DNA of 64,000 nucleotides from Mycobacteriales bacterium. GTDB lineage: Bacteria; Actinomycetota; Actinomycetes; BP-191. The notes under the pieces are model-generated. The model worked only from the letters and a program-made list of their open reading frames with translations, was not told the origin of the DNA and searched no databases. Numbering within the stretch: position 1 is the stretch's first letter; every line of letters starts with the position of its first letter. Positions 13,977 to 50,251 of this stretch are shown in pieces. Location: the NCBI GenBank assembly GCA_035714365.1, contig DASTMB010000074.1, positions 1-64,000 on the forward strand, given 5' to 3'. A program made the translations under genes and the position numbers.

Positions 13977-14222
13977 ATGAAGGTCGTACGTGCTCTCGTG
14001 CTGGGCGGTGCGGTCGTCGCGGCGCTCGCCGCGACCCCGGCCAACGCTCAGACAGTGCCCGGTTGCGACACGGTGCAGACAGTGCCGTCGTCGATCGGTG
14101 TGACACTCGGTGTCACACTGGACTGCTCCGGCAGTGGCAGTGCGGTCTCCGTGGCGACAGTCCCTGGTTGCGAGCTGATCCAGACAGTCGCCAGCGAGAT
14201 CGCGACAGTGCCCTGCTCGTAG
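13977..14222 (+). CDS. Small secreted Cys-containing peptide rich in ACA codons
   Basis: An 81-residue peptide: Sec signal (about 1-24, ending ATPANA) and a mature part of 57 residues with four Cys and an imperfect internal repeat ([Q/A]TVPGC[D/E]...QTV at residues 25-36 and 60-71). Its codon use is striking: seven of nine Thr codons are ACA (codons 26, 35, 43, 47, 61, 70, 77), against almost none in neighbouring genes. The signal-peptide Thr is ACC and codon 32 is ACG. Most ACA codons are followed by a Val codon. Two in-frame stops (TAGTAG) end it, followed 11 nt later by a hairpin. It lies upstream of the operon with an unusual aminoacyl-tRNA synthetase and tRNA, so ACA here may specify something other than Thr (inference). 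Confidence 0.8.
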   Translation: MKVVRALVLGGAVVAALAATPANAQTVPGCDTVQTVPSSIGVTLGVTLDCSGSGSAVSVATVPGCELIQTVASEIATVPCS

Positions 14223-14486: not shown

Positions 14487-15650
14487 ATGAGCACCGCCAC
14501 GCCCACGCTGCCCCGGACCCCCCGGCCCGGCGCGCGCGACGATGTCGAGGCGATGATCGGCGACACGCCGCTCGTCCGGCTGCGCCGGATGTTCCCGGCC
14601 GACGGTCCGGCCGTCTACCTCAAGCTCGAGCAGTTCAACCCGGGCGGCAGCGTCAAGGACCGCACCGCGCTCGGCATCATCCGCCACGCCGAGGAGACCG
14701 GCGTGCTGCGGCCCGGCATGACGATCGTGGAGAGCTCGTCCGGCAACACCGCGATCGGGCTGTCGCTGCTCGCGCAGTCGCGCGGCTACCACGTCGTCGC
14801 GATCTGCGACCGGCACCTGCCGGCGGTCAAGCGGGCGCGGCTGCGCGCGTTCGGCGCCGACGTCGTGTTCCTGCCGGACACGCCGCCGGGCATGGACACC
14901 GTGCAGCTGCGCATCCGTCTCGCCGAGCACCTGGCGAACGTGCTCCCGGACGCGGTGACGCTCGGCCAGTACTCGAGCCCGGGCAACGCGCGGATCCACT
15001 ACGAGACCACCGGCGCCGAGATCTGGCGCGACACCGGCGGGCATGTGTCCGCCCTCGTCGCCGCGGTCGGCACCTGCGGCACGATCACCGGCGCCGGGCG
15101 GTACCTGAAGGAGCGCGACCCGTCGGTCTCCGTCGTCGGCGTGGAGCCGGTGGGCTCGGTCGTGTTCGGCGGCGACCACGGGACCTACCTCGTCCAGGGC
15201 GGCGGCCTCAGCTTCGTGCCGAGCATCTTCGACGGCGGCGTCGTCGACACCGGCATCAAGGTCGACGACGCGACGACGTTCGGCTGCGTGCGCGACACGG
15301 CGTTGCGCGAGGGGTGGCTGCTCGGCGGCACCGGCGGGCTGGTCGTCGCCGGCATCCAGCGGATCGCCGAGCGGTACGGCCCGGACGACACCGTCGTCGG
15401 GATCGTCGCGGACTCGGGGGACCGGTACGTCGAGACGCTGTTCGACGAGGACTGGATGGCGGGCCACGCGGCCGGCGCCGCGCCGGTGTCCGCGTGGGCG
15501 GCCCACCCGGCGACCGCCGCGCTGACGCAGGCGCTCGGCTGCAGCGTCAACGCCGTCCCGGCCGACCCGGGGCCGGCGCTCGCGGAGTTCTGCCACACGA
15601 TCGGGTTCGACCCGGCCGGGCTGCCGGTGCCGCCGGAGGGTGCCGCGTGA
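14487..15650 (+). CDS. PLP-dependent beta-substitution enzyme (cysteine synthase / SbnA-like)
   Basis: A 387-residue fold-type II PLP enzyme of the O-acetylserine sulfhydrylase family. The Schiff-base Lys is K57 in NPGGSVKDR; the substrate loop is ESSSGNTAIG and the PLP phosphate loop GTCGTITGAG. It carries a C-terminal extension of about 60 residues (AHPATAALTQALGC...) absent from ordinary CysK. The long forms I know include SbnA, which joins O-phosphoserine to glutamate on the way to 2,3-diaminopropionate, and related enzymes in antibiotic clusters. No SbnB-type dehydrogenase is next to it. It is the first enzyme gene of a five-gene operon and most likely makes a beta-substituted alanine. 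The exact nucleophile cannot be read from the sequence. Confidence 0.8.
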   Translation: MSTATPTLPRTPRPGARDDVEAMIGDTPLVRLRRMFPADGPAVYLKLEQFNPGGSVKDRTALGIIRHAEETGVLRPGMTIVESSSGNTAIGLSLLAQSRGYHVVAICDRHLPAVKRARLRAFGADVVFLPDTPPGMDTVQLRIRLAEHLANVLPDAVTLGQYSSPGNARIHYETTGAEIWRDTGGHVSALVAAVGTCGTITGAGRYLKERDPSVSVVGVEPVGSVVFGGDHGTYLVQGGGLSFVPSIFDGGVVDTGIKVDDATTFGCVRDTALREGWLLGGTGGLVVAGIQRIAERYGPDDTVVGIVADSGDRYVETLFDEDWMAGHAAGAAPVSAWAAHPATAALTQALGCSVNAVPADPGPALAEFCHTIGFDPAGLPVPPEGAA

Positions 15651-16804
15651 GCGGGTACCTCCTCCTCCACTACGACGAGTTCCACACGCCGCTCGGGCTC
15701 GTCTCGCCGCTGCTCACCGGCGACGGCCCGCGCGTCGTGCTGCACGTCCGCGTCGACGACGCCGACGACGGCGGCGCGGCGCCCGCCGAGGGCTGGGTGC
15801 GGGAGCACGTCGACGCGCGGGACGAGTTCGCCGCCGGGTACCTCACCCGCGCGGTCAAGGCGAACGCCGTGTACGAGGGCGGCTACTACCTCTCCGCCGC
15901 GCTGTCCCGCCCGCTGCTCGCCGCGGTGTGCGCGCGCTCGCTGCGCGAGCGCGGCATCGGCGTGCTGGTCCACGGCTTCGCCGGCAACGACCAGCTCCGC
16001 TTCGAGATGGCGGTGCAGGCGCTCGCGCCGGAGACGACGATCGTGTCGGTCGCCAGCCTGCTCGGCAGCCAGAACGACCGCAACGGCGACGGCTACACCG
16101 TCAGCACCAACCTCTGGGGCCGCAGCGTCGAGGCCGGCCCGCTCGCCGACCCCGCGACCCGCCCGCCCGCCGAGGTGTTCGAGCGCGCCGGGGCGGGGTT
16201 CGCCACCGACGTGCCCGCCGCGCTGCACACGGTGTCGTTCGAGCGAGGCGTGCCGGTGGCGTTCGACGGCGTCGCGAGCGGGCTGCCGGACCTGCTGCGC
16301 CGGGTGGAGGCGGCCGCGCGGCCGCACGGCTTCGGCTACACCGACCTGGTCGAGGACGGCGCGATCGCGCTGAAGACCCGTGCGGTCTACGAGTCGCCCG
16401 CCGCGATCGTGCTCGTCGCCGCGCACCGCGACCTGGAGCGCCTCGTCGCGACGCGCGCGCAGAACCGGTTCAAGGCGCTGGTCGACCAGGCGTGGGCCGA
16501 GCTGGTCTACGACGGCTACTGGTTCGACGCGCAGCGGGAGAGCCTGGACGCGTACGTCGACAGCGTGAACCGCTGGGTCACCGGCGACGTCGACCTGCTG
16601 TTCCGGCCCGGCGGCGTGCACGTCGTCGGCCGCCGGTCCCCGCACGGCCTCTACGGCGAGGCCGAGTCCATCTACCGCTTCGGCCAGGACTTCGGCGCGC
16701 GCGAGGCGACCGCGGTCGCCTCCTCGCTGTCGGCCCACATGCGCGCGTCGGTCCGGCGCGGCGCCACCGCACGAGAGAACGGGAACCCCCGATGGAACGC
16801 CTGA
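15647..16804 (+). CDS. Argininosuccinate synthase-like protein lacking the ATP P-loop
   Basis: A 385-residue relative of argininosuccinate synthase, starting with a GTG that overlaps the previous stop (GTGA). Matches along the family are clear: VDARDEF, AVKANAVYEGGYYLSAALSRPLL, GNDQLRFEM, STNLWGRSVEAGPL, FERGVPVAFDG, LKTRAVYESPAA and VVGRRSPHGLYGE. What is missing is the N-terminal PP-loop that binds ATP (SGGLDTS in the family); here the start reads LLLHYDEFHTPLG. The HG.TGKGND loop is shortened to HGFAGND. So ATP-driven adenylation may be lost or altered while the citrulline/aspartate binding fold is kept. In the operon it may act on a ureido or guanidino intermediate. This is inference. Confidence 0.8.
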   Translation: MSGYLLLHYDEFHTPLGLVSPLLTGDGPRVVLHVRVDDADDGGAAPAEGWVREHVDARDEFAAGYLTRAVKANAVYEGGYYLSAALSRPLLAAVCARSLRERGIGVLVHGFAGNDQLRFEMAVQALAPETTIVSVASLLGSQNDRNGDGYTVSTNLWGRSVEAGPLADPATRPPAEVFERAGAGFATDVPAALHTVSFERGVPVAFDGVASGLPDLLRRVEAAARPHGFGYTDLVEDGAIALKTRAVYESPAAIVLVAAHRDLERLVATRAQNRFKALVDQAWAELVYDGYWFDAQRESLDAYVDSVNRWVTGDVDLLFRPGGVHVVGRRSPHGLYGEAESIYRFGQDFGAREATAVASSLSAHMRASVRRGATARENGNPRWNA

Positions 16805-17589
16805 TGTGCCCTCCGACGTACTTCGACGTCGAGTACAGCATCAACCCCTGGATGGACGTCGCGGTGCCGGTGGACAAGGCGCTCGCGGCCGACCAGTGGC
16901 AGCACCTCTACGACACGCTGGTCGAGCTCGGCGACACGATCCACCTGGTGGACGCGGCGCCGGGGCTGCCGGACATGACGTTCTCCGGCGACGCCGGGAT
17001 GGTGTGGCAGCGGACGTTCGTGCCGAGCAACTTCCGCCACCCGGAGCGGCAGGGCGAGGTCGCGCACTACCTGCCGTGGTTCGAGGCGAACGGCTACGCG
17101 ATCCGGCCGATGCCGGACGACGTGGTGTTCGAGGGCCTCGGCGACGTGGTGTTCCACAACGCGCGCGCGTTCGTCGGCCACGGCATCCGCTCCGACGAGC
17201 GGGCGATCGAGGTGCTCGGCGAGGTCGTGCCGCGGCTCGAGGTGCTCGGCTCGCTGGAGATCGTCGACGACCACTACTTCCACCTCGCGATGGCGCTCGG
17301 GTTCGTCGACGACGACACGGTCGTCTACTACCCGCCGGCGTTCACGCCCGAGTCCGAGGTCGTGATCCAGAAGGCGGTCGCGAACGCGATCCCGGTCTCG
17401 GCGGAGGACGCGAACACGTTCTTCGCCTGCAACAACCTCGTCATCGGCGACACCGTCCTCATCGACGACTGCACGCCGGCGCTGCGCGAGGACCTCGGTG
17501 CGTACGGCTACCGCGTCCGCACCGTCCCCATGTCGGAGTTCAAGAAGAGCGGCGGGTCGCTGCGGTGCCTCGTCCTCAGCTTCATGTGA
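16792..17589 (+). CDS. Arginine deiminase/amidinotransferase-fold enzyme (DDAH-like)
   Basis: A 265-residue member of the guanidine-modifying superfamily (DDAH, arginine deiminase, amidinotransferase). It begins with the family signature CPPTYFDVEYSINPWMD, has FSGDAGMV (acidic substrate-binding region), DDHYFHLAMALGF with the catalytic His, and ends with GGSLRCLVLSF, where the Cys is the expected nucleophile. Both hydrolysis of a methylated or plain guanidine and amidino transfer are possible. The ATG at 16792 overlaps the previous gene by 13 nt; an ATG at 16804 (TGATG overlap) is an equally good start and gives MCPPTYF. It is probably used to make or trim the guanidine/ureido group of the operon's product. 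Confidence 0.85.
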   Translation: MERLMCPPTYFDVEYSINPWMDVAVPVDKALAADQWQHLYDTLVELGDTIHLVDAAPGLPDMTFSGDAGMVWQRTFVPSNFRHPERQGEVAHYLPWFEANGYAIRPMPDDVVFEGLGDVVFHNARAFVGHGIRSDERAIEVLGEVVPRLEVLGSLEIVDDHYFHLAMALGFVDDDTVVYYPPAFTPESEVVIQKAVANAIPVSAEDANTFFACNNLVIGDTVLIDDCTPALREDLGAYGYRVRTVPMSEFKKSGGSLRCLVLSFM

Positions 17590-17619
17590 CGGCGCGCTAG
17601 CGCAGGGAGGGCGGGCACG

Positions 17620-19311
17620 ATGAAGGTCCTGGGGGTCAACGCGGTCTACCACGAGACGTCGGCGGCGCTCGTCGTCGACGGCGAGGTCGTGGCCGCGGTC
17701 GAGGAGGAGCGGTTCAACCGGCGCAAGCACGGCGCGGAGGCCCGCGTCGACAACGCCGACGAGCTGCCGCTGGAGTCGATCCGCTACTGCCTCGGCGCGG
17801 CCGGCGTGACGGCGGCCGAGCTCGACGCGGTCTGCTACTCGTTCGACCCGGCGGCACGCCGGCGGCGCAACCAGCTCGACCCGTACGCGGTGCCGGGGAG
17901 CTGGGGCAGCCTCGACGGCGAGGCGGCGTTCCTCGCCGGCCTGGGCCGCGTCGAGCGGGCGCTGTCGGACGCGCTCGGCGAGCCGGTCGGCGACCGGCTG
18001 CGCTGGGTCCCGCACCACCTCGCGCACGCCGCGTCGAGCTACTACGCGTCGCCGTTCGACGAGGCCGCGATCCTCGTCGCCGACGGCATCGGCGAGTACG
18101 ACTCGACGCTGCTCGCGTACGGCTCGGGCGGGCGGATCACGCCGGTGCGGACGTTCTCGTTCCCGGATTCGCTCGGCTTCCTCTGGGAGCGGCTCAGCGC
18201 GTTCCTCGGCTTCTCCGAGTACGACGCCTGCAAGGTCATGGGCCTGGCCGGCTACGGCGACCCGCGGCGGTACGAGGACCTCATGGCGAAGATCGTGCGC
18301 GTCGAGCCGGGGGCGTTCGCGGTCGACGACAACATCACGCAGTTCCGGCAGCCGGTGTCGGAGGAGCTGGCCCGGCTGTTCGGCCCGCTGCCGTCGCGCA
18401 TCGGCCGGGTGCACGAGGACGTCGCCGCCGCGCTCCAGCACGCCACGAACGAGATCGTGCTCTCGCTCGCCCGCAGCCTCTACGACGCCCGTCCCACGCG
18501 CGGCCTCTGCCTCGCCGGCGGCGTGGCGCTGAACTGCACCGCGAACTGGGTGCTCAAGGAGAACGGCCCGCACGAGGAGGTCTACGTCCCGAGCGCGCCG
18601 CACGACGCGGGCACCGCGGTCGGCGCGGCCCTGCACGAGTACCACCGGGTCCGCCCGCGGGACGCGGTGCGGGTGCGGGCCGGCGCGTCGCCGTACACCG
18701 GCCCGGAGTTCGGCGACGCGGAGGTCCTCGCGGCCGTCGAGCGGCACGGGCTGACGGCGGCCCGGCTCGACGACGCGCCGGCCGAGGCGGCCCGGCGGAT
18801 CGCCGCGGGCGAGGTCGTCGGCTGGTTCCAGGGCCGCATGGAGTTCGGCCCGCGCGCGCTCGGCAACCGCTCGCTGCTCGCCGACCCGCGCGACCCGTAC
18901 ATGCGCGACAAGCTCAACGTGAAGGTCAAGCACCGCGAGCCGTTCCGGCCGTTCGCGCCCAGTGTGCTCGCCGAGCGGGCCGCGGAGTGGCTCGAGCTGG
19001 GCCGCCCGTCGGACAGCTACGAGTACATGCTCTACGCCTGCCCGGTGCGCGAGGAGGTCGCCGACCGGATCCCCGCCGTCCTCCACGTCGACGGCACGGC
19101 GCGGGTGCAGCTCGTGACGGCCGGGAGCAACGCGCGGTACCACGCGCTGATCTCGGCGTTCCACGCGCTGACCGGCGTGCCGGTCGTGCTGAACACGTCG
19201 TTCAACGACTCCGAGCCGATCGTCTGCACGCCGGACGACGCGATCGCGACGTTCCTCAAGACCGACATCGACGCGCTGTTCCTCGGCGACCACCTGGTGA
19301 CGAAGCGATGA
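17620..19311 (+). CDS. NodU/CmcH-type O-carbamoyltransferase
   Basis: A 563-residue carbamoyltransferase of the NodU/TobZ family, about the usual length. The N-terminal ATP-grasping half begins MKVLGVNAVYHETSAAL and has VPHHLAHAASSYYASPF with the catalytic His pair and VADGIGEYDST. The C-terminal YrdC-related half has GWFQGRMEFGPRALGNRS and KHREPFRPFAPSV. Family members use carbamoyl phosphate and ATP to carbamoylate a hydroxyl (antibiotics, Nod factors). A GGGAGGG ribosome-binding site precedes the ATG. In this operon it may carbamoylate the side chain of the amino acid intermediate or of the final product. All motifs appear intact. Confidence 0.9.
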   Translation: MKVLGVNAVYHETSAALVVDGEVVAAVEEERFNRRKHGAEARVDNADELPLESIRYCLGAAGVTAAELDAVCYSFDPAARRRRNQLDPYAVPGSWGSLDGEAAFLAGLGRVERALSDALGEPVGDRLRWVPHHLAHAASSYYASPFDEAAILVADGIGEYDSTLLAYGSGGRITPVRTFSFPDSLGFLWERLSAFLGFSEYDACKVMGLAGYGDPRRYEDLMAKIVRVEPGAFAVDDNITQFRQPVSEELARLFGPLPSRIGRVHEDVAAALQHATNEIVLSLARSLYDARPTRGLCLAGGVALNCTANWVLKENGPHEEVYVPSAPHDAGTAVGAALHEYHRVRPRDAVRVRAGASPYTGPEFGDAEVLAAVERHGLTAARLDDAPAEAARRIAAGEVVGWFQGRMEFGPRALGNRSLLADPRDPYMRDKLNVKVKHREPFRPFAPSVLAERAAEWLELGRPSDSYEYMLYACPVREEVADRIPAVLHVDGTARVQLVTAGSNARYHALISAFHALTGVPVVLNTSFNDSEPIVCTPDDAIATFLKTDIDALFLGDHLVTKR

Positions 19312-20945
19312 CGACCAGCGCGGAGCGGCCGGTGCTCGCCGCCGCGACGGAGTTCGCCGACCACGGGTGGGTCGACTCCGTCGCCGCGGCCGAGGGCCGC
19401 TTCGTGCTGCGCAACGCGCGCGGTCGCTGGGACGTGCGCTGCGACGGTGGCGGTCCGGCCGCCGCGCTCACGCGGCTGCGGCCCGAGTCGGCGGTCGAGG
19501 TGAGCGGCCGGCTGGAGCCGGGGGAGGGCGGCGCGGCCGTCGTCCGCTGCGCGCGCCTCGACGTGCGCAACCTCGCGGAGCCGCTGCCGTTCACCCCGGC
19601 CACCCGCGAGGCGGCGCCCGCCGACGTGCGCGCGCGGTACCGGTACCTGGAGCTCCGCGACGACGCGGTGCGCGAGCTGCTCGTCGCCCGGCACCGCGCG
19701 GTGCACGCGCTGTCCTGCCACCTGGCCGACCTCGGCTTCGTCTCCGTCGAGACGCCCCTGCTGGCCGTGCCGTCCGGGAGCGGCGCGCGGGAGTTCACCG
19801 TGCGCGGCACCGGCGACGTCGAGTACGCGCTGCCGCAGTCGGCGCAGGTCTACGGCCACCTGCTCGTCGCCGGCGGCGTCGAGCGGTACTACCAGCTCTC
19901 CCGGTGCTTCCGCGACGAGGACCTCCGCGCCAACCGGCAGCCGGAGTTCACCCAGCTCCACCTGGAGCAGGCGTTCGCGACGACCGACGACGTCGTGCGG
20001 GTCGTCGAGGGGGCGGTGGTGGCGGCGTTCGCGGCGTGCGGGCGCCCGGTCGCGACACCGTTCCCGCGGCTCACCTACGACGACTGCGTCGCGCGCTACG
20101 GCACCGACACCCCGGACCTGCGGCACGAGCCGCTGTTCCGCGTGCTGCCGTGCCGGCTCGACCGCCGCCGGGAGGGGCCGGCCGACCTGTTCTCGGTCGC
20201 GCCCGCCGACGGCGTGGAGCTCACCGCCGACGACTGGGCGGCCGTCGCGCGCGCAGGCGACCGCGCCGGCTGCCGGCTCGCCGGCTACGCGCCGGCCGGC
20301 GCGCCGGACCCGGACGAGGCGGCGCTGGCGTTCCCCGCGCTGCGCGTGGCGCTCGACCTCGCCGACGCGCCGTTCCCCGGCTGCGTCGCGGTCCTCGCCG
20401 GGCCGGCCGCCCGTGCCGCGAAGGTGTGCCGCGCGGTCTACACCGCCTCGCTCGCGCACCCGGCGCCCGGCGGGCCGCGGCCGGCCTGGGTCACGGCGTT
20501 CCCGATGTTCGAGGCGGACGCCGCGGCGCCCGCCGGCGTCGCCGCGGCGAACAACCCGTTCGTCGCGCCGCTGGACGAGGCGGCGTTCCGGGCCGCCCGC
20601 AAGAAGGTGGAGCTGCTCGCGCTGCGCGGGGCGTCGTTCGACCTCGTCGTCGACGGCGTCGAGCTGGGCAGCGGCTCCGTCGTCAACCACCGGCCCGAGG
20701 TGCAGGAGCGGGTGCTCCAGCTCCTCGGGATGCCGCGCGAGGAGGTGCGCCGGCTGGGCTTCCTGCTCGAGGCGCTGCGGTACGGCGCGCCGCCCGTCGC
20801 CGGCTTCGGGCTCGGCGTCGACCGGCTCGTCGCCGCGATCACCGGCGCGCCCGGCATCCGCGACGTCATCGCGTTCCCCAAGACCAAGACCGGCCGCTGC
20901 CCGATGACCGGCGGCGCGGAGAGGGGAGGTGGCGGGCCGAGCTGA
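19308..20945 (+). CDS. Aspartyl-tRNA synthetase paralogue with altered substrate pocket
   Basis: A 545-residue class II aminoacyl-tRNA synthetase of the bacterial AspRS type, its ATG overlapping the previous stop (ATGA). Order: divergent OB-fold (about 15-95), motif 1, motif 2 (RCFRDEDLRANRQPEFTQL), a shortened GAD-like insertion and motif 3 (GFGLGVDRL). Set against E. coli AspRS by eye, ATP-binding residues are kept but residues that read Asp are not: the Lys at 198 is Gly183 (QSAQVYG), Arg489 is Val459 (GSGSVVNH), Asp233 is His (QLHLE), and the HH pair of HHPF is NN (N415-N416). Loss of both cationic residues argues for a neutral or basic substrate. The tRNA-like gene 17 nt downstream is the likely partner. 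Codon 250 (20055-20057) is an ACA. Confidence 0.85.
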   Translation: MTTSAERPVLAAATEFADHGWVDSVAAAEGRFVLRNARGRWDVRCDGGGPAAALTRLRPESAVEVSGRLEPGEGGAAVVRCARLDVRNLAEPLPFTPATREAAPADVRARYRYLELRDDAVRELLVARHRAVHALSCHLADLGFVSVETPLLAVPSGSGAREFTVRGTGDVEYALPQSAQVYGHLLVAGGVERYYQLSRCFRDEDLRANRQPEFTQLHLEQAFATTDDVVRVVEGAVVAAFAACGRPVATPFPRLTYDDCVARYGTDTPDLRHEPLFRVLPCRLDRRREGPADLFSVAPADGVELTADDWAAVARAGDRAGCRLAGYAPAGAPDPDEAALAFPALRVALDLADAPFPGCVAVLAGPAARAAKVCRAVYTASLAHPAPGGPRPAWVTAFPMFEADAAAPAGVAAANNPFVAPLDEAAFRAARKKVELLALRGASFDLVVDGVELGSGSVVNHRPEVQERVLQLLGMPREEVRRLGFLLEALRYGAPPVAGFGLGVDRLVAAITGAPGIRDVIAFPKTKTGRCPMTGGAERGGGGPS

Positions 20946-20962: not shown

Positions 20963-21210
20963 ACCGGAGTGGCGGAACTGGGAAACGCACAGGTCTTGTA
21001 AACCTGCCGCTCGGCATCGGTCGCCGACACGGTGACGACACGTCCTCCGGTGCCCTATGACCGGTGGACCGGCCACGACGGATCAGCATCCGACCGGGCG
21101 GCCTCGGCCGGGCCGTCCGTTGCTGAGGTCGGGTGTCCGTCCACGGCCCTTGTCACCGTCAGGCTGCTGAGACCCGGGCCTTGGGGGTTCGAATCCCCTC
21201 TCCGGTGCCA
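20963..21210 (+). tRNA. tRNA-like RNA, anticodon UGU, with a 176-nt insertion before the T arm
   Basis: The 5' part is a clean tRNA: acceptor ACCGGAG (20963-20969), D arm with stem GCG/CGC, anticodon stem CAGGT/ACCTG (20990-20994, 21002-21006) and loop CTTGTAA, giving anticodon UGU for ACA codons. The 3' part is also clean: T arm with loop TTCGAAT (21183-21199), acceptor CTCCGGT (21200-21206, perfect 7 bp), discriminator G and encoded CCA. Between them lie 176 nt (21007-21182) instead of a normal variable loop. These can form a long rod: 21019-21025 with 21162-21174, 21029-21036 with 21152-21159 (8 bp), and 21037-21041 with 21133-21137. G73 is an AspRS identity base and A1-U72 is unusual for tRNA-Thr. 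It is either a giant variable arm or an insertion removed later. Confidence 0.7.
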
Positions 21211-21354: not shown

Positions 21355-21531
21355 ATGAACGCACGGACGCTGCGGCTGCGCCGCGAGGCGCTGCACGAGC
21401 TCACCACCGTCGAGCTCGGCCGGGTACAGGGCGCGGGGGTCGTCGACACGACAACCTGCCAGACCACCGAGCTGCTCACGCCGTTCATCGCGACCGGACA
21501 GTCGCAGGACACAACCTGCACGTCGTTCTAG
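21355..21531 (+). CDS. Leader-peptide (RiPP precursor-like) gene 1 with two ACA codons
   Basis: A 58-residue peptide with a charged leader (ARTLRLRREALHELTTVELG) like the leaders of class I lanthipeptide-type and other ribosomal natural-product precursors, then AGVV and a 28-residue core rich in Thr with two Cys. Only two Thr codons are ACA, codons 33 and 53 (21451-21453, 21511-21513), each one codon before a T-C pair. The paralogue downstream has ACA at codon 33 too and again in an Asp-ACA-x-Cys setting, though the cores differ. GGGAGGG lies before the ATG. No lanthionine synthetase or exporter is near, so leader processing must come from elsewhere. The core may receive the amino acid made by the upstream operon (inference). 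Confidence 0.75.
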   Translation: MNARTLRLRREALHELTTVELGRVQGAGVVDTTTCQTTELLTPFIATGQSQDTTCTSF

Positions 21532-21533
21532 AC

Positions 21534-21624
21534 GCGCACCGGCACGCGCGACCGCCGCCCTGCTTCGGCCGGGGGCGCCGCCGCGACGGGATCGGCCCCG
21601 TCGCGCGACCCCGAGGGCGTTCGG
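21534..21624 (+). other. Conserved structured element directly after the stop of leader-peptide gene 1
   Basis: About 90 nt, starting 2 nt after the stop, almost identical to 21963-22048 behind the second gene. It contains a perfect 9-bp hairpin (CGCGACGGG, loop ATCGGC, CCCGTCGCG at 21582-21605) and the block CCGAGGGCGTTCGG. It is better conserved than the peptide cores. Possible roles are mRNA stability or a decoding signal in cis. Confidence 0.6.
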
Positions 21625-21645
21625 AGCGGCCGCGCCACTCTCGTC

Positions 21646-21676
21646 CGCGGCCCCGCCCCTCCCGGGCGGGGCCGCG
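21646..21676 (+). terminator. Terminator between the two leader-peptide genes
   Basis: A 10-bp perfect inverted repeat (CGCGGCCCCG / CGGGGCCGCG) followed by CCGCGTTTCT. It is the copy of the terminator at 21211-21246. Confidence 0.7.
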
Positions 21677-21782
21677 CCGCGTTTCTCCCTCCGCGACGAA
21701 GCCACGCCGTCCCCGCGGTGTGACCCTGGGCGGATCCGCCGGCCCTCGGGGCCGGCCCGGCTGTCGGGAGGGAGGGAACACC

Positions 21783-21959
21783 ATGCAGGCACGCACGCTG
21801 CGGCTGCGGCGGGAGGCGCTGCACGAGCTCACGAGCGAGGAGCTCGGCTCGATCCTCCGCGCGGGCGCCGTCGGCAGCACACCGACGGACACGCTCACCA
21901 CGTCGATCGTCGTCGGGCCGCTCACGCTCGACACACGGTGCGCAACCTCGGTGGGCTGA
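21783..21959 (+). CDS. Leader-peptide (RiPP precursor-like) gene 2 with two ACA codons
   Basis: A 58-residue paralogue of the gene at 21355. The leader (ARTLRLRREALHELTSEELG) is nearly the same; the core differs (AGAVGSTPTDTLTTSIVV...LDTRCATSVG) and has one Cys. The only ACA Thr codons are codon 33 (21879-21881) and codon 51 (21933-21935), the first at the same codon number as in paralogue 1 and the second again as Asp-ACA-x-Cys. Other Thr codons are ACC or ACG. Keeping the ACA codon at fixed places while the surrounding residues change suggests the codon itself, not just Thr, is under selection. GGAGGGAGG precedes the ATG. Confidence 0.75.
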   Translation: MQARTLRLRREALHELTSEELGSILRAGAVGSTPTDTLTTSIVVGPLTLDTRCATSVG

Positions 21960-22108: not shown

Positions 22109-22318
22109 TCAGTCGCAGGCCCAGGGCTTCCAGGTCGGGTCCGGGACGCCGATGTGCTGCCCGGCGACGTCGATGCCGATCAGCTCCGGCGGCGTGCAGC
22201 AGGGGCCGGGCTCGCCCTCGGCGGGCGGGTTGCAGGCCAGCGCGGGCGCGGTGGCGAACGGCGCGGCGGCGAGGCCGGCGGCCAGCGCGAGCGCGGTGGC
22301 GAGACGGCGGCCGGTCAC
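22109..22318 (-). CDS. Small secreted Cys-rich peptide coupled to a leader peptide
   Basis: A 69-residue exported peptide: signal (RRLATALALAAGLAAAPFATAPALA, about 1-28) and a mature part of about 40 residues with four Cys (ACNPP...GPCCTPP...PWACD). The GTG start overlaps the stop of the upstream leader-peptide gene (GTGA), so translation is likely coupled. It has no ACA codon. The pairing of a cytosolic leader-type peptide with a Sec-exported Cys-rich peptide occurs again on the other strand at 22628-22998. Its function is unknown; a two-component peptide system is one possibility. Confidence 0.6.
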   Translation of the reverse strand: MTGRRLATALALAAGLAAAPFATAPALACNPPAEGEPGPCCTPPELIGIDVAGQHIGVPDPTWKPWACD

Positions 22319-22485
22319 GAGCAGGCCACGTCGAGGCTGAGCAGGCAGCGCAGGCCGGTGACCGGCGTCGTGATGCACGGGTCGGTGAGGCAGACCTGGG
22401 TGTTCAGGCCGGCGCCGCCGACCTGGCCCAGCTCCTCGCCGGTGAGCTCGGCGAGCAGCTCCTTGCGGAGGGTGAGGGTGCGCAT
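22315..22485 (-). CDS. Leader-peptide (RiPP precursor-like) gene 3
   Basis: A 56-residue peptide with leader MRTLTLRKELLAELTGEELGQVGG, the double-Gly type ending common for exported bacteriocin-like precursors, and a core with four Cys and several Thr (NTQVCLTDPCITTPVTGLRCLLSLDVAC). It is related to the ACA peptides in the leader pattern (L.LR.E.L.ELT..EL) but all its Thr codons are ACC or ACG. Its stop overlaps the start of the secreted peptide gene that follows. No modification enzyme lies next to it. Confidence 0.65.
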   Translation of the reverse strand: MRTLTLRKELLAELTGEELGQVGGAGLNTQVCLTDPCITTPVTGLRCLLSLDVACS

Positions 22486-22627: not shown

Positions 22628-22840
22628 ATGCGCGCTGTCGCGCTCACCCTCGCGTCGGCGGCCGCCGTCGCCGCCCTCGCGGCGCCCGCCGCCCACGCCC
22701 AGCCCCCGGCCCACTGCGACGAGTCGACGGTCGGCGTGCTCTGCCTCGACCAGGGCTCCGACGGCACGATCTACCAGTGCGTCGTGTGGGTCCGCGGCAT
22801 CCGCCCCGAGAACAACCCGACCTGCTTCGCGATCTTCTAG
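22628..22840 (+). CDS. Small secreted peptide with four Cys
   Basis: A 70-residue exported peptide: signal MRAVALTLASAAAVAALAAPAAHA, then a 46-residue mature part with four Cys (HCDE, LCLD, QCVV, TCFA). It is preceded by CAGGAG and by a TATAGT -10 box, and followed after 2 nt by leader-peptide gene 4. It mirrors the coupled pair on the other strand, with the order reversed. No family is recognised and no ACA codon is used. Confidence 0.55.
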   Translation: MRAVALTLASAAAVAALAAPAAHAQPPAHCDESTVGVLCLDQGSDGTIYQCVVWVRGIRPENNPTCFAIF

Positions 22841-22842
22841 CC

Positions 22843-22998
22843 ATGAAGCGCACCCTGTCGCTCCGCAAGGAGACGCTCGCCGAGCTCACCGCCGGCGAGC
22901 TCGCGTCGGTCGCCGGCGGCGTCACGACCGTGGGCCCGAAGTGCCTGCCGGAGACGCTGACGTTCTGCCCCGACTTCTACTGCACGGGCACGGTCTAG
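22843..22998 (+). CDS. Leader-peptide (RiPP precursor-like) gene 4
   Basis: A 51-residue peptide with leader MKRTLSLRKETLAELTAGEL followed by ASVAGG, a clear double-Gly end, and a 25-residue core with three Cys (KCLP, FCPD, YCTG). The leader type matches precursors of lanthipeptide-like natural products. It begins 2 nt after the secreted peptide gene and its stop overlaps the end of the convergent methyltransferase gene by 4 nt. No maturation enzyme apart from that methyltransferase is near. It has no ACA codon. Confidence 0.65.
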   Translation: MKRTLSLRKETLAELTAGELASVAGGVTTVGPKCLPETLTFCPDFYCTGTV

Positions 22999-25490: not shown

Positions 25491-28400
25491 TCATGCCGCG
25501 AGCGCGTAGTTCTCGACGGCGGTGTACGCCGCCGCCGCCATGGCCATCACGGCGGCGGCCTCCTCGATCGCGACCACCGTCGCGGCGGCTGCCGCGAGCG
25601 CCTCGACCGCGACGACGGCGACCGCCGCGACCGCCGCGACCGCGACCACCACGCCGACCGCGACGAGCGTCACCATCATCGGATTCTCCCACCAGGCGCC
25701 GGCGAAGCTGAGCGGCAGCGGCTCGGTCGTCATCCACTGCGGGGACGGGTTCGGCCACGGCTCGCTCTTCGGCTGGCTGAAGTCCATGTACGGGCTCTCC
25801 TCGGCCGGCTTCTGGACCTCACCCGGCATCGGCGTCTTCCGCACCAGGCTCTCCCGGTACTTCTTCGCGCGTTCGTCGTCGACGTAGTTGTAGTACCGCG
25901 CGCCGCTCGGGGCCGCGGACGGCGGCGACACGACGTAGAACGTGCCCTTCCCGACGCGGAGCTGCGACGTCGGGAGCCACTGACCCGGCGAAGCCTGCTG
26001 GCCGCGGAGCTGGAACTCCTTGACGAACCGCTTCGCGTCCCGCTCCGCGGTGCGCCGGCCGTACTCGTTGTAGGGCTTGACCTCCCAGACGTAGTAGTGG
26101 CCGTTGTAGAGCAGCACGATGTCCGGCCGCGGACCCCAGTTGCGGTTGTTCTCCTTGCCGGGGACGAGCGACTTCAGCCGGCAGCCGCGCAGGATGCCGA
26201 TGTCGCGGTCGAACCCGGGGACGGCCGCGCAGAGCTGCGCGCCCTTCGGCAGCGACGCCTGGATCGTCAGCGCGGTGAGGAACACCGCCGCGTCGTGCGC
26301 CTCGGAGCTGCCCTTCGCGTCGGGGATCGGCCCGTCCAGCGGCCGGCCGTGCGGGGCGCCGTCGGAGCCCATCATGCTGAGCCAGTACGTCATCGCCGCG
26401 CACTCGTCGCCGCCGTCGTCGCAGCCCGGCCGGTGCCCGTCGGGGTCGACGAGGTTCAGCGGGTCGCCGTTGACGTACGAGTAGACGTTCCGGGTCAACG
26501 GGTCGTTGCCGACCGAGCCCTTCCCGTCCGGAGCGCTCGTGCGCACGGTGTCCTGCGTGTTGAACGACGCGCGGGCGGGGTCGTAGGTGCGCGACCCCAT
26601 CTGGTAGGTGCCGGTGGTGGCGTCGCGGCGGGCGCCGTGGAACAGCAGCGACGTCGGCGTCGAGCCGGTGGAGCAGGCGTTGGTGGCGCTCTGCCCGCCG
26701 ATCGGGGAGCCGAACGGGTCGTACCGCAGCGAGCAGGCGACCGTCGCCGAGCTCGTCGGCAGCGTCGTGCTGACGGAGCCGCGGGCGTCGTCGGTCAGGT
26801 ACTGCGGCTGCGAGCCGGTCCGCGCCACCGCGGTCGCCACGCCGTCCGGACGGAGCGCGTAGTCGATCGCGCCGCCGCTCGGCGTGGTCTCCTGGGCGAG
26901 CGTCTTGCTCGCCCCGTCGTAGTACAGCGTGGTCGTGCCGGGCGTCGTGGCGCCCGCGCCGGACTCGGTGCGGGTGGTCTGCCGGTCGAAGCCGTCGTAC
27001 GTGTACGCGGTCGTCGACGGCGTCCCGCAGCCGGTGACGGTCTTGACCGTCGCGGTGAGCTGGCGGTCGAAGCCGTCGTACGTGTTCGTCGTGCACTCGT
27101 CGCCGAGCAGCGCGCCGGACGGCGAGTACGTCGAGTGCCGCACCGGCGCCGCGGCGTTCGCCCGGCTCGTGTCGATGCTGTCGTCGGCGTTGTACGTGAA
27201 CCGCGCCGGGTCGGCCGCGGGGCCGTAGGACAGCCGGTTGCCGTCGTGGTCCCACGTCAGCTCGCGGTCGCCCTGCCGGTCCTTGAACTGCGACAGCCGG
27301 CCCGCCGGGTTGTAGCCGAAGCACTGCAGCCCGGTGGGCAGCAGTGACGGCGACTGCGCGCAGTCGAGCGACGGCGAGGTGCTGGTGCCCTGGTTCGCGG
27401 CCACGACGCGGCCGAGACCGTCGTACTGGTAGTCCCAGCGGGAGAGGACGGCGGACGCCGCCCCCGACAGCGTCTGCGACGCCACCGTGTCGTCGGGGTT
27501 GTAGACCCGCGACAGCGCCGCGCCGTTGGGCAGCGAGACGCCCGCGAGCCGGCCGGCGACGTCGTACGACCACGACTGGGTGCCGCCGGCAACCACGTCG
27601 GAGGTGAGCGACGCGAGCTGCCCGCCGTTGCCGTAGGTGTTCGTCGTCAGCACCCGGGCTCCGGTCGCGTCGACGACGTCGGCGCGCGCCACGCGAGCAC
27701 CCGAGCCGTCGTAGGCGAACTGCACGGTCCGCCCGCGCTCGCTGACCGTGCGGGGCGTCCCGTCGAGGTAGAACGTCGCGGTCGTCGTGACCGGCGACCC
27801 GCTCGCCGGCGTGTTCACGACCGAGACCGCGTGCCCCGCCGGGTCGTACGTGTAGGCGATGCTGTCCTGGCCGTTGTGGCCGCTCTGCGTCGCCATCCGG
27901 TCGTCGTCGTAGTACGTGAAGCGCGCGGTGCCCGACGACGCCGTGACGGTGCCGGACGAGTTGCGCATCACGGACAGCTCCGACGACTTGCGGCCGGCGT
28001 TGTCGTAGCCGTACGTCGTGCGCCGCGTGACGGAGCCGTCGGCGGTGAACGGGGTGGTACGGGTCTGGAGCAGGTTGTCGAGCGTGTACGTGTTGACCAC
28101 GGCGACGCCGTTGACGTTGGACGCGTCGTGCGCGTTGGCCGACGGCGACGTCGTCGTCGTGAGGTTGCCGACGGCGTCGTAGGCGTACGTCGTGTGGTCG
28201 CGCGCCGGGTCGGTCGCGCTGGTGCCGGTGCCGTAGACGTCCTTGCGCAGGCCGTCCGTGTAGTAGGACGCCGTGCTCACCCGCACGATCGGCGTCGCCG
28301 GCTGCGGGTCGACCGGGGCGTGGTTGAGCCAGGTCTTGAGCTCGACCGGCTTGCCGTTCGCGTCGTGCCGGTACTCGGTGAAGTGGTTCACCGTCGCCGT

Positions 28401-31400
28401 CGACGTGGGCTCGCCCGCCTTCGACGCGACGAGGCCGTCCGCCGTGTACGTGGTGACGTCCTGGTGGCCCAGGGCGTCCACCGTCTTCACGACCCGCCCG
28501 CTGCCGTCGTACTGGTACGTCGCCGTCACCTGCCGGCCGGTGCCGGTCGGCTGGCTCGGGTCGGGGGAGTTGACCGTGAGCGGCTTGTTGTCGTCGGTGT
28601 AGGTGGTGAGGACGTAGCGGTTGTCGGCGTTGTTCGACGTCGGCAACGTCACCTTCGTGCGGTTGCCGACGAAGTCGTACGCGTAGCGGATCACGCAGAC
28701 GCCGACGTTGCCCGGGTACGCGGGCACCCCGGTGACCGCGTCCGGCGTGGCGCCGGTCGGGCACTGCGAGGTCTGCGTCGTGCTGAGCCCCGGGTCGCTC
28801 GCGGAGGACGCGTCGTAGCGCGGGCTCCACGCCCGGATCACGCGGCCGTCGGCGTCGACGTCGGAGCGCGTCATGAAGCGCGGGTCGGGCGTCGTGGTCG
28901 ACGTCGCGAACGCGCGCGGCTCGAACTGCGCCGTGACGCGGCCCTCGCTGTCGTACATGACCCGGGTGCGGATGTTGCGCCCGCCCTGGGCGTCGGTGAG
29001 GCCGGCCGACTCCGCGAACTTCGACGACGACGCCTGGACGGTGTCGACCACGCGGTTGTCGGCGTCGTACGAGTAGGCCGTGATGCGGCCGAGCGTCCGC
29101 GTGCCGGGGTAGCTCGGGTTGTCCAGGTAGAACGGGGTGTCGGTGTCGATGCGGATGTAGCCGCTGTCGCCGTAGCCGCCCGCGGCCGGCCCGCTGCCGC
29201 CCGCGCCGCCCGTCGCGTAGACGCTGCCGAGGCTGAGGTTCGGCGCGGTGATCCACACGCCGCCACCGGAGCCGCCGCCGCCGGAGCCGCCGCCGCTGCC
29301 GCCGACGCCGGCCGTGATGGAGGTGCCGGCCGCGCCGTCGGCCGAGATCCGGCCCTCGTTGTCGAGCTGGTTGGCGGTGATGTGGATGAAACCGCCGCCC
29401 GCGCCGCCGGCGCCGCCCGGGTTGGTACCGCCCGCGCCGCCGCCGCCACCGCCGGAGCCGAGGTCGGTCGTGTTGCCGGCGTTGAGGTCGGCGGAGCCGT
29501 ACGCGGCGCCGCCGGACCCGCCCGCGCCGCCGCCGGTGGCGGTCGCGCCGTAGCTGCCCGAGTACCGGTGCCCGGCACCGCCACCGCCGCCGCCGTTCAC
29601 CGCGCCCGGCGAGCCGCCGTGGCCCGGACCCTGGCCCTGGCCGTCCGGCGCGGCGACCGTGAGCGACGTGCCGCCCGCGGCACCGGGCAGGCCGCGGCCG
29701 TCCGCGTTGATCCGGCACGAGTAGCAGACGCTGACGGTGCCGGTGGCCTTGATGTCCAGGCGGCCGCCGCCGCTGGTGTACGGCACCGCCACGACGTACG
29801 CGCCGTTGACCAGCGTGAGGTTCCGGAAGTTCTTGCCCGTGGGCATGACGTACGGGTTGCTCGCGCCGTAGACGTTGCCGTCGATGGTGAGGTCGCCGTC
29901 GGCGCCGGTGCCGAGGTCGACCGCGCCGGGACGCAGCACCGACCTGACGTTGCCGACCGAGTCGTACGTGTAGCGCGTGACGTTGGTGACGCCGGTCTCG
30001 CGCGGGACGGACTGCGTCAGCAGCCGGTTGTTGAGGTCGTACGTCGAGGTGGTGGTGGTGCCCTTGGCGTCGGTGCTCGACGTGACGTTGCCGTCGCGGT
30101 CGTAGGAGACGCTCGACGTGAGCGGGGTGCTCGCGTCGCGGTACGTCGTGGTCGTGCGCGCGCGCCCGGCCTCGTCGTACGTCGTGTGCGTGGCGTACGG
30201 GTCGCCGGCCGCGCACGTCGTGGCGCCGCCCTCCGCGAAGCTGCGCGGCGGGCAGGTGCGCAGGACGTTGCCGTCGGCGTCGTACACGGTGTCGGTGCGC
30301 AGCGTCGTCAGGACACCGTCGTAGCGCGGCGCGTCGGTGCGCACCAGCCGGTGCACGGCGTCGTAGCGCAGCGTCGTCACCTGCGCGTCGGCGTCGGTCT
30401 TCGACACGACGTTGTCGACGCCGTCGAACGACTGGAGGTTCGAGCAGACCAGGCGGCCCGCCGGCAACGGCGCGTCGGCCGTCGTCGTCGCGGTCGCGCG
30501 GCAGCCCGGCGGGCGCTGGGCCGGGTCCGTCGGGAACGGCCCGCGGGTGAAGCTCGTGGACACGACGCGGTTGACCGCGTCGTACGACGACACCGTGACC
30601 GAGCCGTTCGGGTCGGTCTTCGACGTCCGGTTGTCGAACGCGTCGTACGTGTAGCTCGTCTGCTTCCCGGCGGCGGCGCTGACGGGGGTCGCGGTCGTGA
30701 GCGGGTTGTTGTTCTTGTCGTACGTCGCGACGACGTCGTAGCTCGTCGAGTTCGCGGTGACGCCGCGCGGCGGGGTCACGCGTTCGGAGTTGCCGTTGCG
30801 GTCGACCTGCGTCTTCGTCCGGTTGCCGATCGGGTCGGCGGCCTCGGTGACGTAGCGCCACGGGTTCGACAGCGAGCCGCGGATCGACTCCGCGTAGCCG
30901 CCCGAGCAGCACGACGACCACGTGGTGGCGGTGCCATAGGTCTGCCTGCGGTCCCAGGTGCGCGCGATGTTGCCCGCCCGGTCGTAGCTGTAGGCGATGA
31001 AGTGGTCGACACCCTGGTAGTCGGACGGGTTGGACGTCGGGTCCGACACCGTCTTCAGCCACCCGCCGGCGGACGTGTTGCCGCTGAGGTCGCGCTCGGT
31101 GTCGCTGTAGTACTGGTACACGTACCTGCCGTACGTCGAGAACCAGTACGTGGTCGCCGTCGACTGCGGCGTGCGCATCGTGACGCGCTGCCCGTAGTCG
31201 TCGTAGGTGTAGTCGGTGAGGGCGGTCGTCGTGCCGTTGAACGGCTCGGTCTTGCTGCAGAGCACGCCGGTGTTGCGCGCGGTGCAGGCGCTGCCCGGGG
31301 CGGTGGTGTTCGGTGCCGTGCCGACGGCGTTGGCCGGGGCGAACGTCGTGCGGTAGTTCGCGAACGACGCGCCCGCGGCGTTGCCGCGCGGCGTCACGGA

Positions 31401-34400
31401 CGCCGTCTGGTCGGTGATGACGTAGATCACCGACAGGCTCTGCGTCGCGTCCGGGCGCGCGGTCGACGTGACGACGCCGCCGGCACCCGGGGTGTCCGTG
31501 GCGGTCTGCGTCGTGCCGTCGGCCTTCACGTACTGCGCGGTGAAGCCGAACGTCGTGTCGAGCGACGCGGGGGAGCCGCCGGTGTTGGCGCGGCGGGCGG
31601 CGAGGAGGTTCCCCTCGTCGTCGTAGAGGAAGTTCGTCACCTCGTCGGGCGTGCTCGCGGTGAACGAGCTGCGGGTGACGCGGCAGACGTTGTTGTCGCC
31701 GGTGGTGGCGGGCTGTCGGCAGCCGGCGGTGTCCCACGTCTTCTGCGTCGAGTGCAGGTAGACGTCCGAGGTCGAGCCCTCGTCGATCTGGCCGACGCGG
31801 CCGGCGGAGTCGAGGCCCTGGTACCGCGTGCGGTGCGTGCCGGTGTCGGCGGTGACGTAGTCGGGCGACGCGAAGTAGGTGATCGTGGACACGGTCCCGT
31901 TGCGGTCGGTGATGCCGGTGACGCGCTTCGGGCCGAGCGTCGCCGGACCGTACGCGAACCGCGACGTGTACCCGCGCGCGTCGGTGACCGAGCAGAGCTG
32001 CCCGGTGCTGGTCGTGGTGGACCCGTCGCAGTTGTCGCCGAAGCCGTCGTAGGTGTACGTGACGTGGTCGCTCGCGACCGCGCCCGAGGTCTCCGGCGGG
32101 TTGACGACCTTGACGAGGTGCTGCGGCGTCGCCGTGTCCAGCTGGTAGCTCGTCACCCGGCCGGCCGGGTCGGTGACGCGCACCTCGGTCGACGACGGGT
32201 AGGCGATCGACAGCTTGCGGCAGGCCGCGACGAGCGACTGCGCGCAGGTCGTGGAGCTGTTGTAGACCGGGCGCAGCGTCGGCTCGAAGACCGTCGTCAG
32301 GCGCCCGAGCGTCGCGCCGGCCAGCGGCAGCGACTCGTACTGGTACCGCAGCTCGACACCGCTCGGGTCGACCACGCTCAGCAGGCGGCCGTTCCACGAG
32401 TACTCGGTGCGCAGCCGGTCCGGCCGCATCGCGGCGAAGCCGAGCACGACGCCCGTCGAGACGCCGCCGCAGCCGGCCGACGAGACGCCGACGTACCGCC
32501 ACAGCGACAGGTGCACGCCCGCGGGGGCCGTATAGGTGCCGTCGACGCAGACGTTGGTGTGCTTCGTGATGTCCAGCGCCTTGGGCAGCAGCGTCCCGAT
32601 CGCGCTGGTCGAGGTCAGCGAGCTCAGCGAGATCGGCGTCGCGAGCGACTTGAAGCGGAACAGGTGCCGGGTGCCGTCGCGGTCCACCAGCGTCACCGCG
32701 AGCGGCGACGTCACGCCCTGCGCGCTCGGCACGGACAGACCGGTGGCGCCGATCCCGAGCCCGCCGAGGTCGTCGACCTGGCCGAGGTTGAGCTGCCAGC
32801 CGGCGCCGATGCCCGCACCGGGCAGCGCGAGCACGCCGGTGTCCTGGCTGTTGTAGGTGCGCCGCACGCCGTAGGAGAGCCGGCCGTGCGCCTGCACCGG
32901 GGTCGAGTCGTTGGCGCTGACGACCAGGTTGCCGTTCGCGACGTTGACGCTCGCGAGCGACTCGGCCGCGACCTGCTCGGCCGCGTAGGACCACCAGTCC
33001 TCGAGGCCCAGCGCCGTGTCGCACACGGTCATGGTGACCGCCGACGTGGAGGCGCCGAACGAGTTCACGGCGCGCGCGGCGTTGGTCGCCGTCGAGCAGA
33101 CGCGGTCGACGCCGGCCGCGACCGCCTTGTAGACGATGTCCCTCGCCCCGAGCCCGGGCACGGTGAAGCTGCCGACGTTGAGCGTCGTCCCCGTGAACGA
33201 GCAGACGGTGCAGGCGGCGCCGTCGATCGTCATCGGGGTGCCGGTCGCGACCAGGCCGGCCGGCACCGCGTCCGTGATGCTGTCGACGACCATCGACGTC
33301 GACGCCGGGTTGCTGACGTGCAGCGTGAACGTCAGCTCCTGGCCGCGGCCGTACGCCGCCGCCACCGGCGACACGCTCTTCACGAGCTGCGGCGCGGGCG
33401 ACAGCGTGACGGTGTTGGAGTTCGCCGACGGCGGGCCGTAGCCGACGCTGTTCGACGCCGTGACGGTCGCGTAGTAGCTGCCGTACGGAACGCTGCTGAA
33501 CGTCGTGGTGAGGCACGTGGCGCACGTCTTCGTGGTCGTCTCGCCGGTGACGGCGTTCCACAGCGTGATCTCGTAGCCGTCCACGGCCGGGCCGCCGTTC
33601 GCGGCCGGCGCCAGCCAGTCGACCTTCACCGACGTGTTCGTCGGGGTGGAGGCGACGACGTTGCGTGGCGCGCCGGGCGGCGGCGACCAGACGATGTCGA
33701 CCTTCGGCCGCTGGTCGGTGATCGGGTCGTTGGGGCCGGAGAACGACGGGCCGCCGATGTTGCCGGTGGCCGGCTCGGACGACAGCCGCTGGCCGATGCC
33801 GTAGTTCGGGTTCGCGGGGAAGAACCCGCTGACCACCCAGTCGTCGACCAGCGCCTTGATGTCGAACGCGATGGCCGTGCGGGTGCCGGGCGCGAACGCC
33901 GGGAGGTCGTAGTAGTACAGGACCGGCCCGGTGGCGGCGGTGGCGGAGATCTGCGTCCACGTGCTGTTGACGCTGTGGTTCTGGCGCAGCGGGTAGTACT
34001 GGATGCGGTAGTTGTGCTTGTCGCACTGGTACTGCGTCGCGTCGAAGCCGAAGCAGCCGTTCTGGAACAGCGTCATCTTGGCGCTGGTGACGAGCGAGTC
34101 CTCCGCGATCTGCGACGTGGAGAACTTGTAGAAGCTGCGCGCCGGGCGGGCGTCGATGTTCCAGACGGTGCCGACCTTCTCGGTCTGCGTCGCCGCGCCC
34201 ATGGCGTTCGGGTTCGTCGACGGCGGGACGTAGCCGATGCAGCCGCCGCGGGTGCCGCCGCAGGCGCTCTCGTGGCCGGAGCTGACCTGGCTGGTCACCC
34301 AGCTCGCGATCTGCGTGTTGCGGTACGCGACGCTCGGGTCCAGCACGACCGGGAACGACTTGTCCGCGAGCCAGTCCGCGTCGACGGACAGCGTCACGTC

Positions 34401-50046: not shown

Positions 50047-50251
50047 TGCGGAACTCCCGTCCGGTCTGCCGCGGTGGTGCGGCGTCGTGGGCGGGTCGGT
50101 CTCGCCACTGGCTCCCCGTACGGTCTAGGCGACCGCTTGTCTCCGTGCGCTGGGTTGCGTCGGTGAGGTCCGTACGGATCGTCGCTCCCTGCCTGACGAG
50201 CGGCGCTCGTCACAATCCGTAACGACGTTCGGTACAGCGAGTTACGAAGGT

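Follow-up and report, generated by a model that had tools for sequence, protein, structure and literature searches.

A putative natural genetic-code expansion cassette with a giant-arm tRNA(UGU) beside ACA-bearing leader-peptide genes in a Mycobacteriales bacterium

The window analyzed here is a stretch of 64,000 nt from a Mycobacteriales bacterium (assembly GCA_035714365.1, contig DASTMB010000074.1, positions 1-64,000). Within it, five genes that overlap or are separated by short gaps span 14487-20945, the last of which encodes an aminoacyl-tRNA synthetase. A tRNA gene with an extremely long variable arm starts 17 bases 3' of the synthetase gene, and this operon and its tRNA lie 144 bases upstream of twin leader-peptide genes, A1 and A2 (Table 1).

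Table 1. Coordinates of the operon, the tRNA, the proposed target genes and the comparison ORFs in the window.
Feature	Coordinates	Strand	Remarks
ORF S	13977..14222	+	81 aa, 4 Cys, upstream of operon; proposed target
PLP enzyme, cysteine synthase/CBS/SbnA group	14487..15650	+	PF00291 E 2e-64
Argininosuccinate-synthase-like protein	15647..16804	+	N-terminus LL.YD..HTP
Arginine dihydrolase/DDAH-like enzyme	16792..17589	+	conserved Cys (GGSLRC)
O-carbamoyltransferase (NodU/TobZ/NovN-like)	17620..19311	+	PF16861 + PF02543
AspRS-derived class II aminoacyl-tRNA synthetase, altered amino-acid pocket	19308..20945	+	PF00152
tRNA gene, 248 nt	20963..21210	+	tRNA-Leu-like body, G73, encoded CCA, giant variable arm
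Anticodon TGT (UGU), reads ACA	20997..20999	+
Variable arm, 176 nt, predicted long hairpin	21007..21182	+	-100.0 kcal/mol alone
Leader-peptide gene A1	21355..21531	+	58 aa; ACA at 21451-21453 and 21511-21513; proposed target
Leader-peptide gene A2	21783..21959	+	58 aa; ACA at 21879-21881 and 21933-21935; proposed target
Related leader-type ORF (comparison)	22315..22485	-	0 ACA/8 Thr codons
Related leader-type ORF (comparison)	22843..22998	+	0 ACA/9 Thr codons

A scan of a genome collection revealed at least two orthologous operons among the best 80 loci listed. The first (locus L049) is in the uncultured Paraburkholderia sp. 'Vmac symbiont' (CALNWS010000101.1) and has the same gene order as the window. 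The second (L050) is in Breoghania corrubedonensis DSM 23382 (NZ_QAYG01000004.1), where the order is argininosuccinate-synthase-like gene, DDAH-like gene, carbamoyltransferase and synthetase, with the PLP gene inverted downstream. The proteins of the two loci are 38-64% identical to those of the window, with values of 46-52% for the PLP enzyme, whose nearest solved protein is the CBS Rv1077, and 58-64% for the DDAH-like enzyme. The N-terminal ATP loop of argininosuccinate synthase has the sequence SGGLDTS; all three argininosuccinate-synthase-like proteins have LL.YD..HTP in its place. A solved 'nitrile synthetase' (9lei) is a further match of the window protein of this family (E 8.9e-21). Based on the enzyme families alone, our guess is that the operon product, here called X, is a serine-derived amino acid of the ureido or guanidino type, and its identity remains unresolved.

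The synthetase matches models of AspRS (NF001750, 349 bits; TIGR00459, 323 bits) and a solved AspRS (E 4.8e-112), so that a class II AspRS fold is evident from its sequence. It is 40-43% identical to the other two cluster enzymes and 36% identical to the AspRS of its own genome. Class II motif 2 (FRDEDLR) is kept and motif 3 is present. In E. coli AspRS there are two residues, K198 (the Lys of QSPQ-L-F-K) and R489 (the Arg of GGGS-x-R-I), that we take to bind the aspartate carboxylate. Among 81 loci, comprising the best 80 scan matches listed and the host AspRS, the K198 equivalent was Lys in 75 of 77 readable rows and the R489 equivalent was Arg in 76 of 78. The only exceptions at either position were L049 and L050, both with Gly at the first and with Val or Leu at the second; the window synthetase has Gly and Val, respectively. 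A His pair before a PF motif was found in at least 60 of the 81 loci with a loose pattern; the corresponding residues of the cluster enzymes are NN, NS and CH. In family, in motifs 2 and 3 and in having a G73 tRNA, the cassette synthetases resemble bacterial AspRS, from which they differ by the loss of both the K198 and R489 equivalents. As the class II motifs are intact and the pocket residues are lost, we infer from the sequence that the enzyme is built to charge a tRNA, probably with an amino acid other than aspartate.

The tRNA has an acceptor stem of ACCGGAG/CTCCGGT, a D-stem of GCG/CGC, an anticodon arm of CAGGT-CTTGTAA-ACCTG and a T-arm of GGGGG-TTCGAAT-CCCCT. By its core, the closest host tRNA is a tRNA-Leu. 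That the gene is a broken housekeeping tRNA was rejected, because the same genome has five tRNA-Leu genes at other places. A similar tRNA lies 3' of the synthetase gene in both orthologous operons. The three have in common the body and G73, and have variable arms of 176, 208 and 210 nt and the anticodons UGU, CUA and CUA in the window, Paraburkholderia and Breoghania, respectively; the tRNA of Breoghania measures 282 nt. RNAalifold recovered the cloverleaf from the three sequences unprompted. Of its 20 pairs (7 in the acceptor stem, 3 in the D-stem, 5 in the anticodon stem and 5 in the T-stem), 4 show compensation on both sides: two in the acceptor stem (1-72 and 5-68) and one each in the anticodon stem and the T-stem. 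The window gene was reported by neither ARAGORN nor Rfam RF00005, presumably because of the variable arm. A 2007 survey cautioned that atypical tRNAs may escape tRNA finders (PMC1914089), and ARAGORN missed all three here (0/3), including those of both orthologous operons.

A synthetase clearly derived from AspRS and a giant-arm tRNA that keeps G73, like tRNA-Asp, would also be expected if the dedicated pair inserted a canonical residue such as Asn, Asp or Ser at its codon (ACA or TAG), with the four other enzymes making a different compound. We regard this as unlikely. None of the three synthetases has kept the residues that contact the carboxylate of Asp, the four enzymes accompany the pair in all three operons, and there is little reason for a costly cassette to insert a residue that has codons of its own.

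The twin genes were the subject of the original prediction, which held that each contains exactly two ACA codons, that every other Thr codon is ACC or ACG, and that the second ACA lies within Asp-ACA-x-Cys. All of this was borne out by our codon counts: ACA accounts for codons 33 and 53 among the 13 Thr codons of A1, and for codons 33 and 51 among the 10 of A2, with all four within the core region. The description of ACA as rare also held. In a background sample of 51,877 codons from 86 long, GC3-rich ORFs (the window and 12 further stretches of its own genome), ACA was 27 of 3,988 Thr codons (0.68%) and 0.05% of all codons, or approximately one per 1,900 codons. The chance of at least two ACA among the Thr codons is 3.4e-3 for A1 and 2.0e-3 for A2. 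With the two genes pooled, ACA (four copies) is the most over-represented codon, with P 1.8e-5 among synonyms and P 5.0e-7 over all codons.

Like mersacidin-type lanthipeptide precursors, the twins have a leader of the form LxLxxExLxELTxxEL. The match of A1 to the Mersacidin family model (PF16934) is weak, at 21.9 bits and below the cut-off of 27.6, and A2 has no match. Unlike in mersacidin-type lanthipeptides, there is no lanthipeptide synthetase among the operon genes, and the core contains ACA codons.

A third proposed target, ORF S, has what appears by eye to be a signal peptide (MKVVRALVLGGAVVAALAATPANA) and an SD-like sequence (GGAGGAGG) 5' of its ATG. ACA makes up seven of its nine Thr codons (codons 26, 35, 43, 47, 61, 70 and 77), all of them downstream of the probable signal peptide, so that in S, A1 and A2 ACA is restricted to the region after the leader or signal. 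The enrichment in S has P 2.3e-14; this value is post hoc, as S was picked after its ACA codons had been seen. Support for S as a gene is limited: its coding score, calculated for a form with a longer start, is slightly negative, a simple gene caller made no call, and among 393 genomes of its class no homologue was convincing (apart from S, the top score was 22.9 bits, E 4.7e-4). Scanning its own genome for S-like genes with a sequence pattern gave no match, but the gap in the pattern was too short to recover S itself. When all codons were ranked by over-representation, ACA took first place in each of S, A1 and A2 on its own, and did so in no comparison set (five sets, drawn from six small ORFs nearby). 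Two ORFs elsewhere are richer in ACA (14 and 12 copies), and were rejected as shadows of large genes based on strongly negative coding scores. The synthetase gene itself has a single ACA, at codon 250, which is aligned with Thr or Ser in the orthologues.

Each of the seven Cys residues in S, A1 and A2 sits 2-4 residues after an ACA (product of exact permutation probabilities 0.0014, with the 2-4 window set after looking). X may consequently be placed to react with a nearby Cys, and the spacing would fit a ring or cross-link between the two. Such a reaction cannot be general, because the Breoghania product described below has no Cys.

In Breoghania, the next ORF after the CUA tRNA (L050:11937-12158), preceded by the Shine-Dalgarno sequence AGGAGGTGA, has 16 in-frame TAG among 73 codons and a terminal TAA. 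With x for TAG its product would read MALxMVxMARTVATxLExARTTxLVGVxLVxAAxATQALHMxKQAxGAxVDVxKVxMERAxAVxALQAxQGKK. All 16 in-frame stops are TAG, whereas among all triplets of the locus TGA (1.43%) is approximately four times commoner than TAG (0.36%), and 12 of 13 long ORFs at the locus end in TGA and one in TAG. Both other frames on the plus strand are open, and an antisense ORF exists that would require 16 CTA among 28 Leu codons. There was no signal of helical periodicity in the positions of the 16 TAG. Other TAG-dense frames without TAA or TGA were noted among the 80 loci (L123, at least 10 TAG in 70 codons; L097, at least 8) and set aside, as in our judgement they look like out-of-frame readings of AT-rich DNA.

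UGU accompanies ACA in the window and CUA accompanies TAG in Breoghania, so that anticodon and enriched codon vary in step. The original prediction had argued for selection on the codon in the twin genes, and this gains support from three sides: the tRNA that closes the cassette just upstream has the anticodon for ACA, UGU; no codon is more over-represented than ACA in A1 or in A2; and in Breoghania a changed anticodon accompanies a changed codon in the adjacent gene.

The same observations bear on whether the tRNA serves translation at all. Peptide aminoacyl-tRNA ligases are reported to use aminoacyl-tRNA in RiPP clusters (PMC11962472), and a variable arm of this size would be unusual in a tRNA that serves the ribosome. 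The aminoacyl-tRNA could in principle be an activated donor, for PEARL-type tail addition or other tRNA-dependent biosynthesis, with the codon matches incidental. We consider this unlikely, as a ligase-like gene is absent among the five operon genes, and as the anticodon would then be free to drift, yet it matches the ACA-rich genes here and the ORF with 16 TAG in Breoghania.

In the Paraburkholderia symbiont, the evidence for TAG is limited to one TAG in an ORF of only five codons after the CUA tRNA (L049:7334-7351, ATG GCA CTT TAG GAT TAA). This ORF has a strong Shine-Dalgarno sequence, and its start (AGGAGGTGAGTAGAATG GCA CTT TAG) matches that of the TAG-rich gene of Breoghania. Each genome contains a single copy of the shared start pattern, and that of Breoghania also a single copy of a reversed control pattern. 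Possible readings of the ORF are a very small peptide, the remnant of a gene or an assembly collapse.

So short, leader-peptide-like an ORF, together with the great rarity of ACA and the rejection of the tRNA gene by automatic finders, could be taken to mean that ACA is a slow codon by which the peptide genes are timed or regulated (attenuation), and that the tRNA is decayed or is a regulatory tRNA-like element. This explanation seems to us very unlikely. A comparison of the three genomes shows compensatory changes in the core of the tRNA, S has seven ACA in its mature part and none in its leader, and the 16 in-frame TAG are left unexplained.

We hypothesize instead that the locus is a natural genetic-code expansion cassette for a non-canonical amino acid, X, and consider this likely, in the absence of any transcript, expression, charging, peptide or mass data. 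The four operon enzymes would make X, and the AspRS-derived synthetase, its pocket changed, would attach it to the giant-arm tRNA(UGU) dedicated to this purpose. During translation, X would then be placed at ACA in the probably secreted product of ORF S and in the cores of A1 and A2. In Breoghania and the Paraburkholderia symbiont, the cassette has a CUA tRNA, and X would hence be inserted at TAG. A dedicated synthetase lies beside a dedicated tRNA at three loci, with enrichment of the cognate codon in associated genes for ACA (S, A1 and A2) and for TAG (Breoghania). The operon, the tRNA, the anticodons, the codon enrichment and the loss of pocket residues are established at the level of sequence; the charging of X, the decoding of ACA and TAG, the identity of X and its being non-canonical are inferred.

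Use of ACA in this way would be cheap, as the codon is nearly unused in this GC-rich genome and is in effect semi-vacant. The genome has an intact-looking ordinary tRNA-Thr(UGU) that would compete for ACA, so decoding may be a mixture of X and Thr. With approximately one ACA per 1,900 codons, ambiguous reading would cost little. By wobble, U34 of the giant-arm tRNA might in addition read ACG, which is a common codon and for which the tRNA-Thr(CGU) present in the genome would compete.

The cassette appears to be rare. A profile of the DDAH-like enzyme scored 536-543 bits for the three orthologues vs. at most 234 bits for other family members. With it, an orthologue was found only in the source genome itself in each set of genomes sampled: for the window, 1 of 393 genomes in its class and 1 of 3 in its order; for Breoghania, 1 of 397 in its order and 1 of 87 in its family; and for the Paraburkholderia symbiont, 1 of 399 in its order and 1 of 144 in its genus. 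Among the matches listed, tblastn of plasmids and phages with the synthetase gave only ordinary AspRS, and plasmids searched with the DDAH-like protein gave only ordinary DDAH. In viral contigs, the alignment of the DDAH-like proteins gave matches of at most 38% identity, and that of the synthetases a single ordinary AspRS fragment with the Lys kept. This rare, patchy presence in three distant bacteria suggests that the cassette has spread by horizontal transfer.

Of known systems, the one the cassette works like is that for pyrrolysine (pylTSBCD), in which the genes for biosynthesis are clustered with those of a class II synthetase and a tRNA that are both dedicated to the amino acid. The cassette clusters the same three kinds of component, and two of the three found have a CUA anticodon and TAG. 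It differs from the pyrrolysine system in the UGU anticodon, sense codon ACA and giant variable arm of the window tRNA, and in that the synthetase is derived from AspRS and not PylS (no PylS model was among the matches listed). The operon families (PALP, argininosuccinate-synthase-like, DDAH-like and carbamoyltransferase) are unrelated to PylB, PylC and PylD. The selenocysteine system comprises tRNA-Sec, a tRNA with a long variable arm, SelABD and SECIS, and uses the UGA codon with conversion on the tRNA. The cassette shares with it a dedicated long-variable-arm tRNA for an extra amino acid. Unlike in the selenocysteine system, charging is predicted to be direct, by a dedicated synthetase, the codons are ACA or TAG and not UGA, and the window anticodon is UGU and not UCA; the tRNA-Sec model (RF01852) gave only a weak, partial match to the window tRNA (20.5 bits vs. 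a cut-off of 47). By the features tested, the cassette is neither of these systems.

To our knowledge, selenocysteine and pyrrolysine are the only natural additions to the code. Our best reading is that the cassette is a third, independent of both and in the window acting via a rare sense codon. According to the 2007 survey, searches based on stop codons gave no candidate 23rd amino acid, and the case of a sense codon was left "as an open problem" (PMC1914089). We found no such system in the literature, as represented by open-licence PMC papers. That X is an undescribed 23rd encoded amino acid, carried between distant bacteria by a mobile, codon-switching cassette (amber twice, ACA once) in what would be the first case in nature of a sense codon serving an extra amino acid, is in our estimation probable, with considerable room for doubt. 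If true, this would be a third, independent code expansion, a route for reassigning codons gene set by gene set, and a synthetase/tRNA pair ready for engineering.

Three further features of the window were noted. Two pairs of genes, each with a small, secreted-looking, Cys-containing ORF beside a leader-type, RiPP-like ORF and without ACA, lie at 22109-22485 and 22628-22998. On the minus strand, an ORF of 3256 residues (25491-35261), apparently by eye a secreted protein of the RHS/YD-repeat type, has 0 ACA among 400 Thr codons. Also on the minus strand, at 50086-50198, is a match to the c-di-GMP-II-GAG riboswitch at the gathering threshold (47.7 bits).
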